Of a stretch of 64,000 nucleotides of DNA, positions 3,614-10,145 are shown piece after piece. Each line of letters begins with the position of its first letter. Position 1 is the stretch's first letter. Origin of the DNA: Sedimenticola sp. (GTDB lineage: Bacteria; Pseudomonadota; Gammaproteobacteria; Chromatiales; Chromatiaceae); NCBI GenBank assembly GCA_002869585.1, contig PKUO01000021.1, positions 1-64,000 on the forward strand, in the 5' to 3' direction. Under the pieces are notes generated by a model, which was not told the origin of the DNA, did not search any database, and saw nothing but the letters and a program-made list of their open reading frames with translations. Made by a program: the position numbers and the translations under genes.

Positions 3614-4342
3614 CTACTTCAGCTGGAATGCCATGGCATAGGTAACATTCATCGGGCACTCCACCCCTTCCGGCGGTGAGGGTAGTGGCTGGGCCTTTTC
3701 GATGGCGTTCAGTGCCCCCTTTTGTAATAGCTTATGCCCCCGGTTGATCTCGATGTTTTCCGCGTAGCCGGCGCAGGTCAGGGTGAAACTGACATGGATG
3801 TTACCCTGGATGCCTTTCCGCCGGGCGCTGTTGGGATAAAACTTCTCCCGCTCAATCCGGCTCAGAATCTCTGCGATATAGTGCTTTTTGAGGTCGATAT
3901 TCGGTAACGGCGCCGGCACGACGGGCGCAGGGACGACCACCTCCTCTTTTTTCGGTTGTTCCGGAGGGGGGGGAGGCTGGGGTACCGGTTTCGGCTTGGG
4001 CTTCGGAACGGGTTTAGGCTTGGGCTTGGGTTCAGGCTTCGGCTCGGGTTTCGGTTCCGGCTTCGGTTCGGGTTCGGGTTCGGGTATAGGTTCCGGCTCG
4101 GGTTCAGGCTCCGGCTCCGGCTCCGGCTCCGGCTCCGGCTCTGGCTCTGGCTCAGGTGGCTGTTCGATGATGACCGGCTGCGGTGTGGTGAAATTGATAC
4201 GTACCTCGGTCAACTTGGGCAGCGCCTGCATCTCCGGGGCGGCGCTGAGCAGTTTTTCACGAAACTCCAGCGCCACCGCGACATGCAGCACAATGGATAG
4301 CGTGATCGCCAGCAGACGCCAGCTCCAGTCCTGTCTCCTCAT
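3614..4342 (-). CDS. tonB: TonB-family energy transducer
   Basis: The 242-residue protein is a TonB-like transducer. It has an N-terminal membrane anchor ([20 protein letters not shown], residues 6-25) and a periplasmic spacer of about 75 residues made of Glu-Pro then Lys-Pro dipeptides. A C-terminal TonB domain follows ([26 protein letters not shown], ending in YAMAFQLK). TonB carries proton-motive energy from ExbBD to outer-membrane receptors. Its start overlaps the exbD stop by 4 bases, so they are translationally coupled, and it is the last gene of the receptor operon. It is presumably dedicated to the receptor encoded at the other end of that operon. Confidence 0.92.
3985..4160 (-). repeat. 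Degenerate 6-bp tandem repeat coding the TonB Pro spacer
   Basis: The plus strand is a run of hexamers such as GGCTCC, GGTTCG, GGCTCA and GGCTTG. On the minus strand these read as Glu-Pro and Lys-Pro dipeptides. Glu-Pro comes first, then mixed EPKP, then KPKP, so charge switches along the spacer. Repeat-length variation would lengthen or shorten the periplasmic reach without shifting frame. Open frames on the other strand here (Gly-Ser repeats) are by-products of this repeat. Confidence 0.85.
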
Positions 4343-4740
4343 GGCTGTACGGTAACTATGTCCAGGGATTCAGCACCTGCGTTCCTTGCGGCATCGATGA
4401 TTTTGACCGCCTTGCCGAACTGGGCGCCATGATCACCGCGCAGTCGCACAAAACGTTTGTTTGGCGCATGCAAGGCGCCGCGTATGGACTCTTCCAGTTC
4501 ATCTTCCGGGACAATCGCCTCGCCGATATGCAGCAGGCCATCCGGTGTCAGAATCACTTCCACGAATTCGTCAAGCTCGCTGCTGTCCGCGCTGGTGGCC
4601 TTCGGTAGGGCGATGTCGATGCTCTGCTCTTCGATAAAGTGCGCGGTGAGCATGAAGAACACCAGCAGCAGAAAGACGATATCGATCAGCGGCGTCAGAT
4701 TGAGAACGACATTGGAGTGGCGCTTGCGCTCATACGCCAT
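4339..4740 (-). CDS. exbD: ExbD/TolR family proton-channel subunit
   Basis: A 133-residue ExbD-like protein. A single transmembrane helix carries the invariant proton-carrying Asp in [19 protein letters not shown] (residues 16-34), followed by a periplasmic domain of about 95 residues. With ExbB it forms the inner-membrane proton channel that powers TonB. Its start lies 11 bases inside exbB and its stop overlaps tonB by 4 bases, so the trio is tightly coupled. TolR is the alternative name, but no Tol genes are nearby and TonB is, which favours ExbD. Confidence 0.92.
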
Positions 4741-5404
4741 CCGTTATCTCCTCCCAGTGATGGGGCTCGGTGCTATGGGTGGTTGAATCCTGCTGGCCGT
4801 TTCTGCGCTCCAGCAGCAACGAGATGCAGTTTTCCATGGATTGGGCGCGGCGCTCCACCACCCCCTCCAGAAAGTGCAGCAGGATCAACAGCGGGATGGC
4901 GACTGCCAGACCGACCCCGGTGGTGATCATCGCCTCCCAGATGCCGCCGGCCAATGCCTGGGCATCGACCTTGCCGCCGGCCGCCTCGATCACCATGAAG
5001 GCCTTGATCATGCCGGTGATGGTGCCGAGCAGACCGAGCAATGGCGCGGTGTTCCCGAGGATGCCGAGGGTGCGCAGGCCGAACTCCATGCGCTGCAGCT
5101 CCTGGGCGCGGACCCGGCCGCCGACGCTTTTCAGGTCCTTGACCCCGGATTTGTCCGCCGCGAGGATATTCTGGATGATCCGCGCCTCCGGGCCTTTCAG
5201 GGTTGCAACCTGCTGTTGTGCATCATCCTGTTCGAGCATTGTGTCGAGCTCGGGCCAGAGCGGCTTGGGGAGCTTCTGCTGGCGCAGAAACAGCAGGTAA
5301 CTCTCCAGTACGATCGCCAGTCCGATCGAAGAATAGGCGGCCAGAATCCAGACTACCGGTCCGCCCTTGATCATCATTTCTGTCAAATTCATGGTGTTAT
5401 CCAT
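4730..5404 (-). CDS. exbB: ExbB/MotA/TolQ family proton-channel subunit
   Basis: The 224-residue product is an ExbB-like membrane protein. It has an N-terminal helix (GGPVVWILAAYSSIGLAIVLESYLLF) and then a cytoplasmic segment. Two further helices follow, including the family signature LGILGNTAPLLGLLGTITGMIKAF, and the last helix is MITTGVGLAVAIPLLILL. It scaffolds ExbD and TonB. Two starts are possible. ATG 5404 overlaps the upstream gene by 16 bases. ATG 5392 has GGAT about 6 bases upstream and may be the true start, giving 220 residues. Confidence 0.92.
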   Translation of the reverse strand: MDNTMNLTEMMIKGGPVVWILAAYSSIGLAIVLESYLLFLRQQKLPKPLWPELDTMLEQDDAQQQVATLKGPEARIIQNILAADKSGVKDLKSVGGRVRAQELQRMEFGLRTLGILGNTAPLLGLLGTITGMIKAFMVIEAAGGKVDAQALAGGIWEAMITTGVGLAVAIPLLILLHFLEGVVERRAQSMENCISLLLERRNGQQDSTTHSTEPHHWEEITDGV

Positions 5405-7940: not shown

Positions 7941-10070
7941 TCAGAAGTTATAGGTATATGTAAGCATGGCGTTGCGCGGTGATCCCGCCGAATAGTAGTA
8001 GCTGCTGCCACTCTTTTTCGCTTCTACCGCGTAGTGCTTGTCGAACAGGTTGTCGATGTTCAGCGCCAGGCTGTGCGGCCCCTTTTCGTAGCCGATCATC
8101 AGGCTGGTGAGGAAGTCGTAGCCCTTGTACTGTTCACTGTTTTCGTTGTCCATCCAGTAGGCACCCCAGGTGTCGGACTGCAGCCGCGCCTTCCAACCGG
8201 AGGCGTGCTGATAGCCCATGCTCAGGCTGAGCTGGTGCTTGGGCACATAGGGGATGTAGTTGCCGGAACGGTCGACCAGGGTAGCGCCGGTACGGCCGTA
8301 GACGATCTCCTGGAAGTCCTGGAAGGTATAGTCGCTGTAGGCGTAGTTGGCGCCCACCCACCAGTTGGGGGTGAGGTTATAACGGCTGCTGATCTCGAGT
8401 CCCTTTTTCAGGGTTTCACCGGCATTCTGGAATTCCGTGGACCAGCCATTGATGACCGAGACGATCTCGTCGCTCACCTCGGTGCGATACAGGGCCAGAT
8501 CGAAGCTCCATGTCTTGCTGCGGCCTTTCAGGCCAAGCTCTATGTTGCGCGCCTTGGCGGCATCCAGATCCGGGTTGGATTGAATCTCTGACTCGGAGGG
8601 TACCTGCCCGGACTGGGCAATGGTGCCATACAGGTTGATGCTGTCGTTGAGTGCATAGGTGACACCCAGTTTCGGCGAGAACAGCTTGAACGTGGTGTTG
8701 GTGTCAGTGACTACCGGTGCGGCAAAATCTTCATAGAGTCCGGTGCGGTAGCTATATTCGGAATAGGCGGTATTGCTGATGTCGAAATTGTTGCGATCGT
8801 AGCGGAAACCGATATCGATGTTGATGCGATCGTTCGGTTTCAGTGTCTCCTGCATGAACAGCCCATAGAGGGTATTGGTGGTCGATTCCACCTCCATCAA
8901 GTCACCGGTGGTGTCGGTAACGGTCTGGGTCAGACCGTTCTGGATATCCAGATACTTGTACTTGAAGGATTCGTCCGTATCGTCAACCCGGGCGGTTACG
9001 CCGGCCACCAGGGTGCTCTCACCCAGCAACTGGTGCTTGTAGGCAAACTCCAGATCGGTGCCGAATACATTGGTTCCGGGATTGTCATTGATTGCGCCGG
9101 TAACCGGATGAAAGTGGTCCCAGTTGTTGAAATAGACACGGGGCTTGAAGGTGAGGTCGCCGAACTCCTTCTCCAGCCGGCTGTTGAAAAACCAGATGGT
9201 GGAGTAGCGGCCGTTGCGCTGCCAGGGGCTGCTGGTGTCATGCTGCTCCCCGGTCTGCTTGAACAGCTCGAACTCCTCCTTGGTCATCGAGGCGGGCAGT
9301 TGCATATCCGCCTGGGAGTAGCTCAGCTCGGTCTCCAGGGTGGCGCCGTCATCCAGCATCAGGCCATGTTTGAGGCTCAGTTGCTGGGTGTCGAATTCGT
9401 TCCAGTCGCGCCAGTAATTTTCCAGTTCGCGGTGGGAGGCGGTAATCGAGAAGGCGTTATTGTCGTTGATGTCACCACTGATGCGGCCATGCAGGTTGCG
9501 GCTGCCGTACTCGCCCACCCCGACCCGGACGCGATTGTCATCGGTCTCGAATACCTACTTGGAGATGATCTGCACTGTGCCGCCAGCGGAGCCGCTGCCG
9601 TACAGGGAGCCGGGGCCCTTGGTGATTTCGATACGCTCGATATCCTGGGTGTCGATAAAGTCGAAGCGGGAGAAGCTGTCCGGGTCGGTCATGGGCACGC
9701 CATCGCGCAGCACCATGATCTCGCGCACGCCGTAGTTGGCCTTCTGGCCTGCGCCACGAATCATCAGGCGGACATCGTAGCCACCGTTTTTCGAATCGAT
9801 CAGAACGCCGGGTGTACCCTGGATGGCGTCCTTGATATTGAGCATTTTTGCATCTTCGATCTTCGCTTTGTCGATTACATCGATGGCGCCGGGGACCTCC
9901 TTGGTGCCACGGGCAACGCGCGATGCGGTAACGCTGATGGTGTCCACCGCCTCGTCGTTCTCATCCTGGGTGGTCTCTTCCGCGGCGTACAGCGGGGTGG
10001 CAATGAAGGCTAGTGCACTGCCGGCCAGCAGGGAATGGATGGCAAGGGAGATTATTTTTTTATTCATCAT
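7941..10070 (-). pseudogene. TonB-dependent receptor interrupted by in-frame TAG
   Basis: The full frame is 710 codons. It opens with a signal peptide (residues 1-30, ending PLYAAE), a TonB box (DTISVTA, 43-49) and a plug domain (to about 170, ending GSGSAGGTVQIISK). Codon 172 is TAG (9557-9555). The same frame then continues with VFETDDNRVRVGVGEYGSRN and a complete beta-barrel to the C-terminal strand NAMLTYTYNF. No frameshift is present; one base change to CAG or AAG would restore it. As written, translation gives only a plug fragment. It heads the seven-gene operon. AAGG lies 6 bases before ATG 10070. The ligand is unknown; neighbours suggest a metal chelate. Confidence 0.85.
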
Positions 10071-10131
10071 GGCAACCTTGGTTACTACTTAATCGGGCTG
10101 CCAATTTTATGCTTACTGTTAGTGGTATTTT

Positions 10132-10145
10132 TTGTTCAAGATCAA
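10132..10145 (-). promoter_or_regulatory. FNR/CRP-like operator upstream of the receptor operon
   Basis: The 14 bases TTGTTCAAGATCAA match the FNR consensus TTGAT-N4-ATCAA with one mismatch. The site lies 62 bases before the receptor start codon, a sensible distance for an activator near -41.5 if the leader is short. I infer low-oxygen (FNR/Anr-type) control. The 215 bases between the receptor and apaH hold no gene. Confidence 0.45.

Follow-up and report, generated by a model that had tools for sequence, protein, structure and literature searches.

Contig PKUO01000021.1 of Sedimenticola sp. carries a seven-gene operon that joins a TonB-dependent uptake system to membrane electron-transfer proteins. 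We analyzed positions 1 to 64,000 of this contig (hereafter the window), and all seven genes lie on the minus strand within 3614-10070 (Table 1). An earlier reading of the letters alone (the original prediction) had proposed such a set with mostly overlapping starts and stops, and both points hold: neighboring genes overlap at five of the six junctions, the sole exception being a 13-nt gap between the receptor stop and the DUF start. The DUF/NapH junction reads TGATG and the NapH/CcdA junction ATGA, while the overlaps measure 16 nt at CcdA/ExbB, 11 nt at ExbB/ExbD and 4 nt at ExbD/TonB. Pfam identifies six of the seven genes, the exception being the DUF protein, which scores under its cut-off; the energizing set of TonB, ExbB and ExbD passes all three Pfam cut-offs. 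An AIM24 protein gene lies downstream of the operon and an ApaH gene upstream. Neither PepSY nor DUF2271 occurs among the Pfam matches of the seven genes and both neighbors, and neither an Ftr1 permease nor a P19 protein among those of the operon.

Table 1. Features of the operon and its upstream region, in window coordinates unless another locus is named.
Feature	Coordinates	Strand	Basis or detail
Seven-gene operon	10070 to 3614	-	order receptor, DUF4198-like, NapH-like, CcdA-like, ExbB, ExbD, TonB
FNR-type site TTGATCTTGAACAA	10132..10145	-	9/10 consensus positions; 61 nt from receptor ATG
-10-like hexamer TAAAAT	10104..10109	-	centre 32 nt from FNR-site centre
TonB-dependent receptor, type A, frame interrupted after plug	7941..10070	-	Pfam Plug 1e-24, barrel 2.5e-45; stop read as X
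In-frame TAG stop in receptor	9555..9557	-	sequence; aligned type A relatives
Periplasmic DUF4198-fold protein, conserved His, C-terminal helix	7127..7927	-	sub-cut-off Pfam; predicted fold
NapH-like membrane polyferredoxin, conserved Cys/His loop	6075..7127	-	Pfam Fer4_5, Fer4_10
CcdA/DsbD_2-like membrane thiol protein	5389..6078	-	PF13386 78 bits
ExbB	4730..5404	-	PF01618 (MotA_ExbB) 94 bits, above cut-off
ExbD	4339..4740	-	PF02472 92.8 bits, above cut-off
TonB, long Pro-Glu/Pro-Lys linker	3614..4342	-	PF03544 (TonB_C) 46.9 bits, above cut-off
Repeat copies in genome G067	L184 1320-1497, 3437-3621, 4615-4790, 9091-9290, 16199-16376; L220 13113-13279		

Sequence comparison marks the DUF4198-fold, NapH-like and CcdA-like genes as a conserved core that serves two main, exchanged receptor types. 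Homologous loci were fetched by their NapH-like gene, so its presence is by construction. The reduced set comprises 119 loci, of which L052 and L187 are one and the same contig; the DUF gene is present in 118 of them and the CcdA-like gene in 113, counts that are lower bounds, most gaps being contig ends. The one locus lacking the DUF gene (L180) has its NapH-like gene at a contig edge. Two further CcdA-like genes (L082, L083) were seen in an earlier locus set; of the remaining four loci, three lie on contigs that end inside the NapH-like gene and one is fragmented (L199). Among the 86 first loci, with three contigs counted twice, every locus has the DUF gene and 84 have the CcdA-like gene; in the remaining two, the contig breaks off within the NapH-like gene. 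The original prediction had made its case depend on this neighborhood: the core is kept, CcdA-like gene included, and conservation as a unit supports its description of a TonB-energized, metal-related operon joined to electron-transfer proteins. The receptor is of type A in 47 loci and in the window and of type B in 30 loci; there are also one group of five and ten singles, and some of the counted receptors are cut by contig ends. Exchange of A for B on the same core requires at least five changes on the NapH tree, a quick tree with some long branches, and the receptor lies on the same strand as the core in 96 of the 119 loci.

Genome samples give the distribution of the family. The NapH-like gene is carried by 7 of 55 relatives and by 15 of 369 class, 32 of 398 phylum and 39 of 194 family genomes, counts that include the window's own genome and were made at thresholds differing between samples. 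Scanning named genomes yielded 184 confirmed relatives, of which we retained the best 80. Carriers include Sedimenticola, Thiodiazotropha (clam symbionts), Methylophaga, Methylomonas, Neptuniibacter, Amphritea, Mariprofundus and Sulfurimonas, among others. Plasmids yielded one relative by the NapH-like protein at 1e-20 and no match by the DUF protein at 1e-3 or the receptor barrel at 1e-50; viral contigs yielded no relative.

The window's own receptor gene is interrupted. The gene encodes a receptor with plug and barrel; the original prediction recognized the receptor but missed an early in-frame TAG that follows the plug domain. Beyond this stop run 537 open codons, a length expected with a chance of 5e-9 at the local base composition. 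The stop position is open in 46 of 46 aligned type A receptors, and the single match to the window receptor at 1e-10 in its own genome is that receptor itself. Because of the early stop, the window copy may be recently impaired, read through or affected by a sequencing error; intact copies exist in relatives. Type A receptors share an invariant HxH (window residues 319 and 321; 47 of 47 rows) and lack the OprC copper site.

The NapH-like protein combines a polyferredoxin layout with a loop of conserved cysteines and histidines. It carries a CX3CP motif, two CX2CP motifs and two four-Cys ferredoxin motifs. Its scores stay below the cut-offs of the NapH models TIGR02163 and NF007013 (68.9 and 66.9 bits against 213 and 234) and of the NosR model NF046105 (31.7 bits against 1000). 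No FMN-binding domain occurs among the Pfam matches of the operon proteins, and the CcoG model is not among the NCBIfam matches listed for the NapH-like protein (25 of 28). After helix 1, residues C47, C57, Q63 and H64 are invariant in 120 of 120 rows (numbered from the GTG at 7130); H68 occurs throughout the 111 ordinary rows but is missing from all nine rows of the double-cubane clade described below. E. coli NapH shares 21% identity with the protein and lacks the Cys/His loop. We place the loop on the periplasmic side because of the topology of NapH; the AlphaFold model of the NapH-like protein is poor, with a mean predicted local distance difference test score (pLDDT) of 59.5.

Two further observations concern the electron carriers. 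The CcdA-like protein scores well above the PF13386 (DsbD_2) cut-off of 24.9 bits and keeps C26, C30 and C147 in 97, 98 and 97 of 98 rows, among them the redox Cys pair (C26 and C147). On a Sulfurovum plasmid (L110 9822-11990), polyferredoxin and DUF domain are fused in one 722-aa protein, its NapH-like part reaching residue 172 and its DUF part spanning 436-722 (32% over 299 aa, 9e-41), which supports joint action of the two. The first receptor of this fusion cluster is annotated as two frames, 6782-7783 and 7840-8961.

Structure prediction gives the DUF protein a DUF4198 fold although its sequence score fails. Against PF10670 (DUF4198) it reaches 15.9 bits (E 0.014) where the cut-off is 34. 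Its AlphaFold model, built from 49 rows, has a mean pLDDT of 89, and a Foldseek search with VIA-align placed Zcp (Z 16.4) and Ni-bound IsDUF4198 (Z 14.1) first, the next other row standing at 7.2. The top Zcp structures are native, Zn, Co and Cu entries. We discounted the complement and macroglobulin rows (Z about 7), taking their similarity to reflect a common arrangement. Profile searches against solved structures returned mostly weak immunoglobulin-like matches, with Zcp and IsDUF4198 only at E 0.16-1.1. The earlier label 'DUF4198-like' is therefore wrong by the Pfam sequence cut-off and right by predicted fold (Z 14-16). Counting from codon 7930-7928, which immediately precedes the ATG, His 42 is conserved in 57 of 67 rows, His 89 in 60 and His 141 in 64. 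The N-terminal segment is His-rich, with at least two His in 55 of 67 rows, and may correspond to the N-terminal His metal site of mature DUF4198 proteins. The C-terminal helix, residues 239-263 of the model, reads as a probable membrane anchor.

FNR-type sites recur upstream of the receptor genes. Against the consensus TTGATNNNNATCAA, the window site matches at a level that shuffles reach in 0.6%, and the 64 kb window holds three sites as good (six counts over both strands, the pattern being palindromic). Across receptor-upstream regions, sites matching nine or ten positions occur in 15 of 86 (window included; 2.1 expected from shuffles) and perfect sites in 3 of 86 (0.1 expected). The FNR-like box of the original prediction stands as a predicted site, enriched among relatives and limited to this subset. 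Its spacing from the -10-like hexamer is that of class II FNR promoters; we rejected this spacing as a general feature, as it is not general in the other 14 loci with FNR-type sites. Consensus scans for Fur, NikR, CueR, Zur, NsrR and NtrC found no strong sites in the 86 regions. The Fur 19-mer matched at 14 or more of 19 positions in two regions (0.7 expected), and a shorter Fur form at 12 or more of 14 in three (0.3 expected), slightly above chance. Three Mariprofundus-type loci (L073, L076, L085) carry a sensor-regulator pair directly upstream of ExbB-ExbD-TonB. The sensor best matches ActS/PrrB/RegB (244-250 bits, cut-off 350) and the regulator ActR/PrrA/RegA (206-213 bits, cut-off 250), suggesting a redox-type, RegB/RegA-like pair.

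The neighbors of the core point to copper rather than to Ni or Co. PCuAC (PF04314) adjoins TonB in L013 and L054, and in L186 it ends a divergent receptor-ExbB-ExbD-TonB block. Chance would place 0.23 copies in 0.949 Mb of flanks (P 0.0017, from 43 over-cut-off copies in 55 genomes), a test made, like that for OprC, after the matches were seen. OprC-type receptors share cluster and strand with the operon in L014 (genome G007, 627 bits) and L044 (G797, 618 bits), above the TIGR01778 cut-off of 472 and with both CxxxM and HxM; L182 has a third, assigned by similarity and motif alone, so that three loci compare with about 0.06 expected. With the nos-bearing locus described below, copper-marked loci number 7 of 119; they are scattered over the NapH tree, where they require at least six changes. 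Same-strand neighbors were also scanned for protein families, a survey that covered 111 of 136 listed open reading frames after those already matched to core, PCuAC, TlpA, LTXXQ, BNR, NosZ, double-cubane reductase and activase seeds had been removed; it found extra TonB/ExbB and no dominant metal marker among the 25 of 85 families listed. Within that scope, neither the targeted nor the unbiased survey found a Ni/Co or Zn permease. One CobT-type protein lies near L197.

One relative places the operon beside the genes for N2O respiration. In genome G067, an operon of TonB, type B receptor, DUF, NapH-like and CcdA-like genes is followed after about 0.95 kb by nosZ on the same strand. The nos cluster continues with two cytochromes c, the first assigned by a Pfam match and the other from a CxxCH motif, and with nosD, NosG-, NosH-, NosL- and NosY-like frames recognized by eye, an ABC ATPase in the place of nosF, Sco and PCuAC. 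A Pfam search for NosL came back empty; we rejected its absence, as an overlapping frame resembles a NosL lipoprotein. Copies of a dispersed repeat about 178 bp long, with 94-99% identity, lie between genes or at their edges in both the operon and the nos cluster (Table 1).

Nine loci (L175, L186, L193-L196, L211-L213) add an ATP-dependent enzyme pair to the core. They form one side of a branch with support 100, on long branches, and share the order DUF, NapH-like, double-cubane reductase, activase ATPase, CcdA-like; in L195 a receptor sits before the CcdA-like gene. The L193 reductase exceeds the NF040772 cut-off of 350 bits (358.9), and the other double-cubane reductases are assigned by similarity only. 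In L186 the genes lie 1 to 50 nt apart by tblastn limits. These parts also occur together on the Sulfurovum plasmid (L110 6782-15052), where the CcdA-like gene leads and the double-cubane copy scores 321.9 bits, under the cut-off. The window operon has neither reductase nor activase.

Several loci carry other additions. In eight Mariprofundus-type loci (L065, L071, L073, L076, L077, L081, L085, L093), an LTXXQ (CpxP/Spy-like) periplasmic protein lies between the receptor and DUF genes, and in four Sedimenticola-type loci (L009, L016, L017, L079) a TlpA-like thioredoxin follows TonB. A second, opposite-strand cluster of receptor, BNR-repeat protein and thioredoxin-like protein adjoins the operon in L046 (8185-13698) and L066 (5172-8363), with ExbB-ExbD-TonB in addition in L046. 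Elsewhere in the window, a 128-aa reading frame on the plus strand (494-880) ends in a very lysine-rich tail of the KKKDKKEKKSK type.

We propose that the operon is a dedicated TonB system which takes up a metal as a chelate and couples this uptake to periplasmic reduction, with copper as the most likely metal; we consider this account probable. It starts from what sequence or fold displays directly: the gene set, its conservation and motifs, the DUF4198 fold, the FNR-type sites and the copper-protein neighbors of relatives. From these we infer the direction of electron flow, the reduction of metal or thiol after entry, the sequence of events and, for the window itself, copper as the metal. 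The receptor, energized by the operon's own ExbB, ExbD and TonB, would import the chelate into the periplasm, where the DUF4198-fold protein, with its C-terminal helix as an anchor to the inner membrane, would bind chelate or metal through its conserved His. The NapH-like protein would accept electrons from the quinol pool or the cytosol and pass them along its iron-sulfur clusters to the Cys/His loop, and the CcdA-like protein would move thiol electrons across the membrane. Acting together, the two would free the metal by reducing it, or would maintain the loop cysteines in reduced form. The freed metal could then reach periplasmic users (N2O reductase, copper oxidases) or chaperones such as PCuAC, with expression partly under FNR-type, anaerobic control.

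Several observations weigh against this proposal. A good FNR-type site is missing from 71 of the 86 upstream regions, and no copper protein occurs in the stretch read at 112 of the 119 loci. The PCuAC and OprC tests were post hoc, and beside the G067 nos cluster the CcdA-like frame is shortened. The window receptor lacks the OprC copper site (CxxxM-HxM), gives no match to TIGR01778 at 1e-3 (25 of 26 matches listed for the plug, all 12 for the barrel) and falls under the cut-off of every named receptor family among the matches listed. IsDUF4198 barely responds to Cu, according to the available part of its description (PMC12537917). The ATP-driven, low-potential electrons of the double-cubane clade are unnecessary for Cu(II).

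Genome-wide association with nitrous oxide respiration adds little to the choice of metal. In the family sample, nosZ occurs in 34 of 39 operon genomes and 57 of 155 others; the copper-free control cd1, at 32 of 39 and 65 of 155, is nearly as strongly associated, which also counts against the proposal. We therefore rejected the nosZ profile as proof of copper, for which it is weak support. By stratum, the operon is present in 32 of 79 genomes with both genes, 2 of 12 with nosZ only, 0 of 18 with cd1 only and 5 of 85 with neither; these counts, uncorrected for relatedness, favor nosZ over cd1. The window's own genome has nosZ and two PCuAC genes, all outside the operon, and no OprC at 1e-60. 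The idea that the operon replaces OprC as receptor was also rejected, OprC occurring in 14 of 39 operon genomes and 30 of 155 others.

Iron is the main rival to copper. Here the operon would import a ferric siderophore and the NapH-like/CcdA-like pair would reduce Fe(III), replacing a PepSY/DUF2271 flavin reductase; we think this rather unlikely. Very low-potential electrons, as in the double-cubane clade, would suit tight ferric chelates, and the receptors match the siderophore model TIGR01783 best or nearly so. Yet those scores are below the cut-off for the window receptor and seven others scored, although the second receptor on the Sulfurovum plasmid passes it (225.7 against 223.5). PepSY-DUF2271-DUF4198 clusters, of which some include TonB genes and are under Fur control, are presented as an iron module in the accessible portions of two papers (PMC8238504, PMC7190382), which tells against copper as well. 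Against iron, none of the 86 upstream regions has a strong Fur box, and the metal-specific neighbors found are copper proteins.

Uptake of Ni, Co or Zn, in which the CcdA-like and NapH-like proteins would maintain a metal-binding thiol in its reduced state, comes close to the original prediction, and we consider it improbable. IsDUF4198 prefers Ni, binding it with a dissociation constant of 18 nM, and DUF4198 genes often adjoin TonB receptors and NikR-type regulators, as stated in the available part of PMC12537917. However, no NikR- or Zur-like site rises above chance, the surveyed neighbors include no Ni/Co or Zn permease, and these metals require no reduction; the earlier lean toward Ni/Co finds no support where the specific neighbors are copper proteins. 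A redox-active organic cofactor reduced after import, such as the quinone PQQ (pyrroloquinoline quinone), is very improbable: the nearest solved receptor for types A and B alike is the PQQ transporter PqqU/YncD, but the window receptor scores far under that model's cut-off (73.4 and 62.5 bits in two parts, against 1200), and such a cargo leaves the metal-binding DUF4198 fold and the metal-protein neighbors unexplained.

Copper uptake with periplasmic reduction may be one case of something broader. Double-cubane reductases were previously known as soluble enzymes, and we know of no established role for them. In the nine-locus clade the reductase would feed the NapH-like polyferredoxin. A tentative extension, which we think possible rather than probable, is that the core is a general periplasmic metal-chelate reductase with an upgradable electron source, and that this clade spends ATP to send very low-potential electrons across the membrane onto an imported chelate. 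If so, double-cubane reductases would gain a physiological partner, for which this clade is the candidate, and TonB metal import a reductive class with copper as its main cargo. A literature search, with most subscription papers outside its coverage, found no paper linking double-cubane proteins with TonB and no published description of the operon's gene combination.

With its TonB receptor, metal-binding protein and pair of transmembrane electron carriers, the conserved operon leads to a specific proposal that can be tested, namely that copper is taken up in bound form and set free by periplasmic reduction. The operon's closest counterparts share only some of these parts. The PepSY/DUF2271/DUF4198 modules (eLife 2021, PMC8238504), as far as the available text describes them, likewise pair a secreted DUF4198 protein with a transmembrane electron carrier, have a link to TonB and are proposed to reduce metal in the periplasm. 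They use a PepSY carrier, flavinylated DUF2271 and iron/Fur control, whereas the window family has an iron-sulfur polyferredoxin with a CcdA-like protein, copper neighbors and FNR-type sites. OprC/NosA is also TonB-dependent, and the accessible part of its description has it anaerobically expressed and linked to copper and N2O reductase (PMC8610252). Of the 119 related clusters, 3 contain an OprC-type receptor; the window receptor differs in lacking the CxxxM-HxM site and family score, and OprC, as described in that part, has no electron-transfer partners. The cupric reductase CcoG is similarly a membrane iron-sulfur polyferredoxin proposed to reduce a metal; in the portion of PMC8456105 available, it reduces cytoplasmic Cu(II) for cbb3 oxidase assembly, whereas the window operon has a Cys/His loop and TonB uptake. 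NapH and NosR share the Fer4_5 and double ferredoxin layout, but the NapH-like protein has no NapG partner or flavin domain and carries two extra CX2CP motifs and the loop. The FtrABCD/P19 iron systems also set a NapH-like protein beside metal uptake; in place of their Ftr1 permease and P19, the window operon has a TonB receptor.

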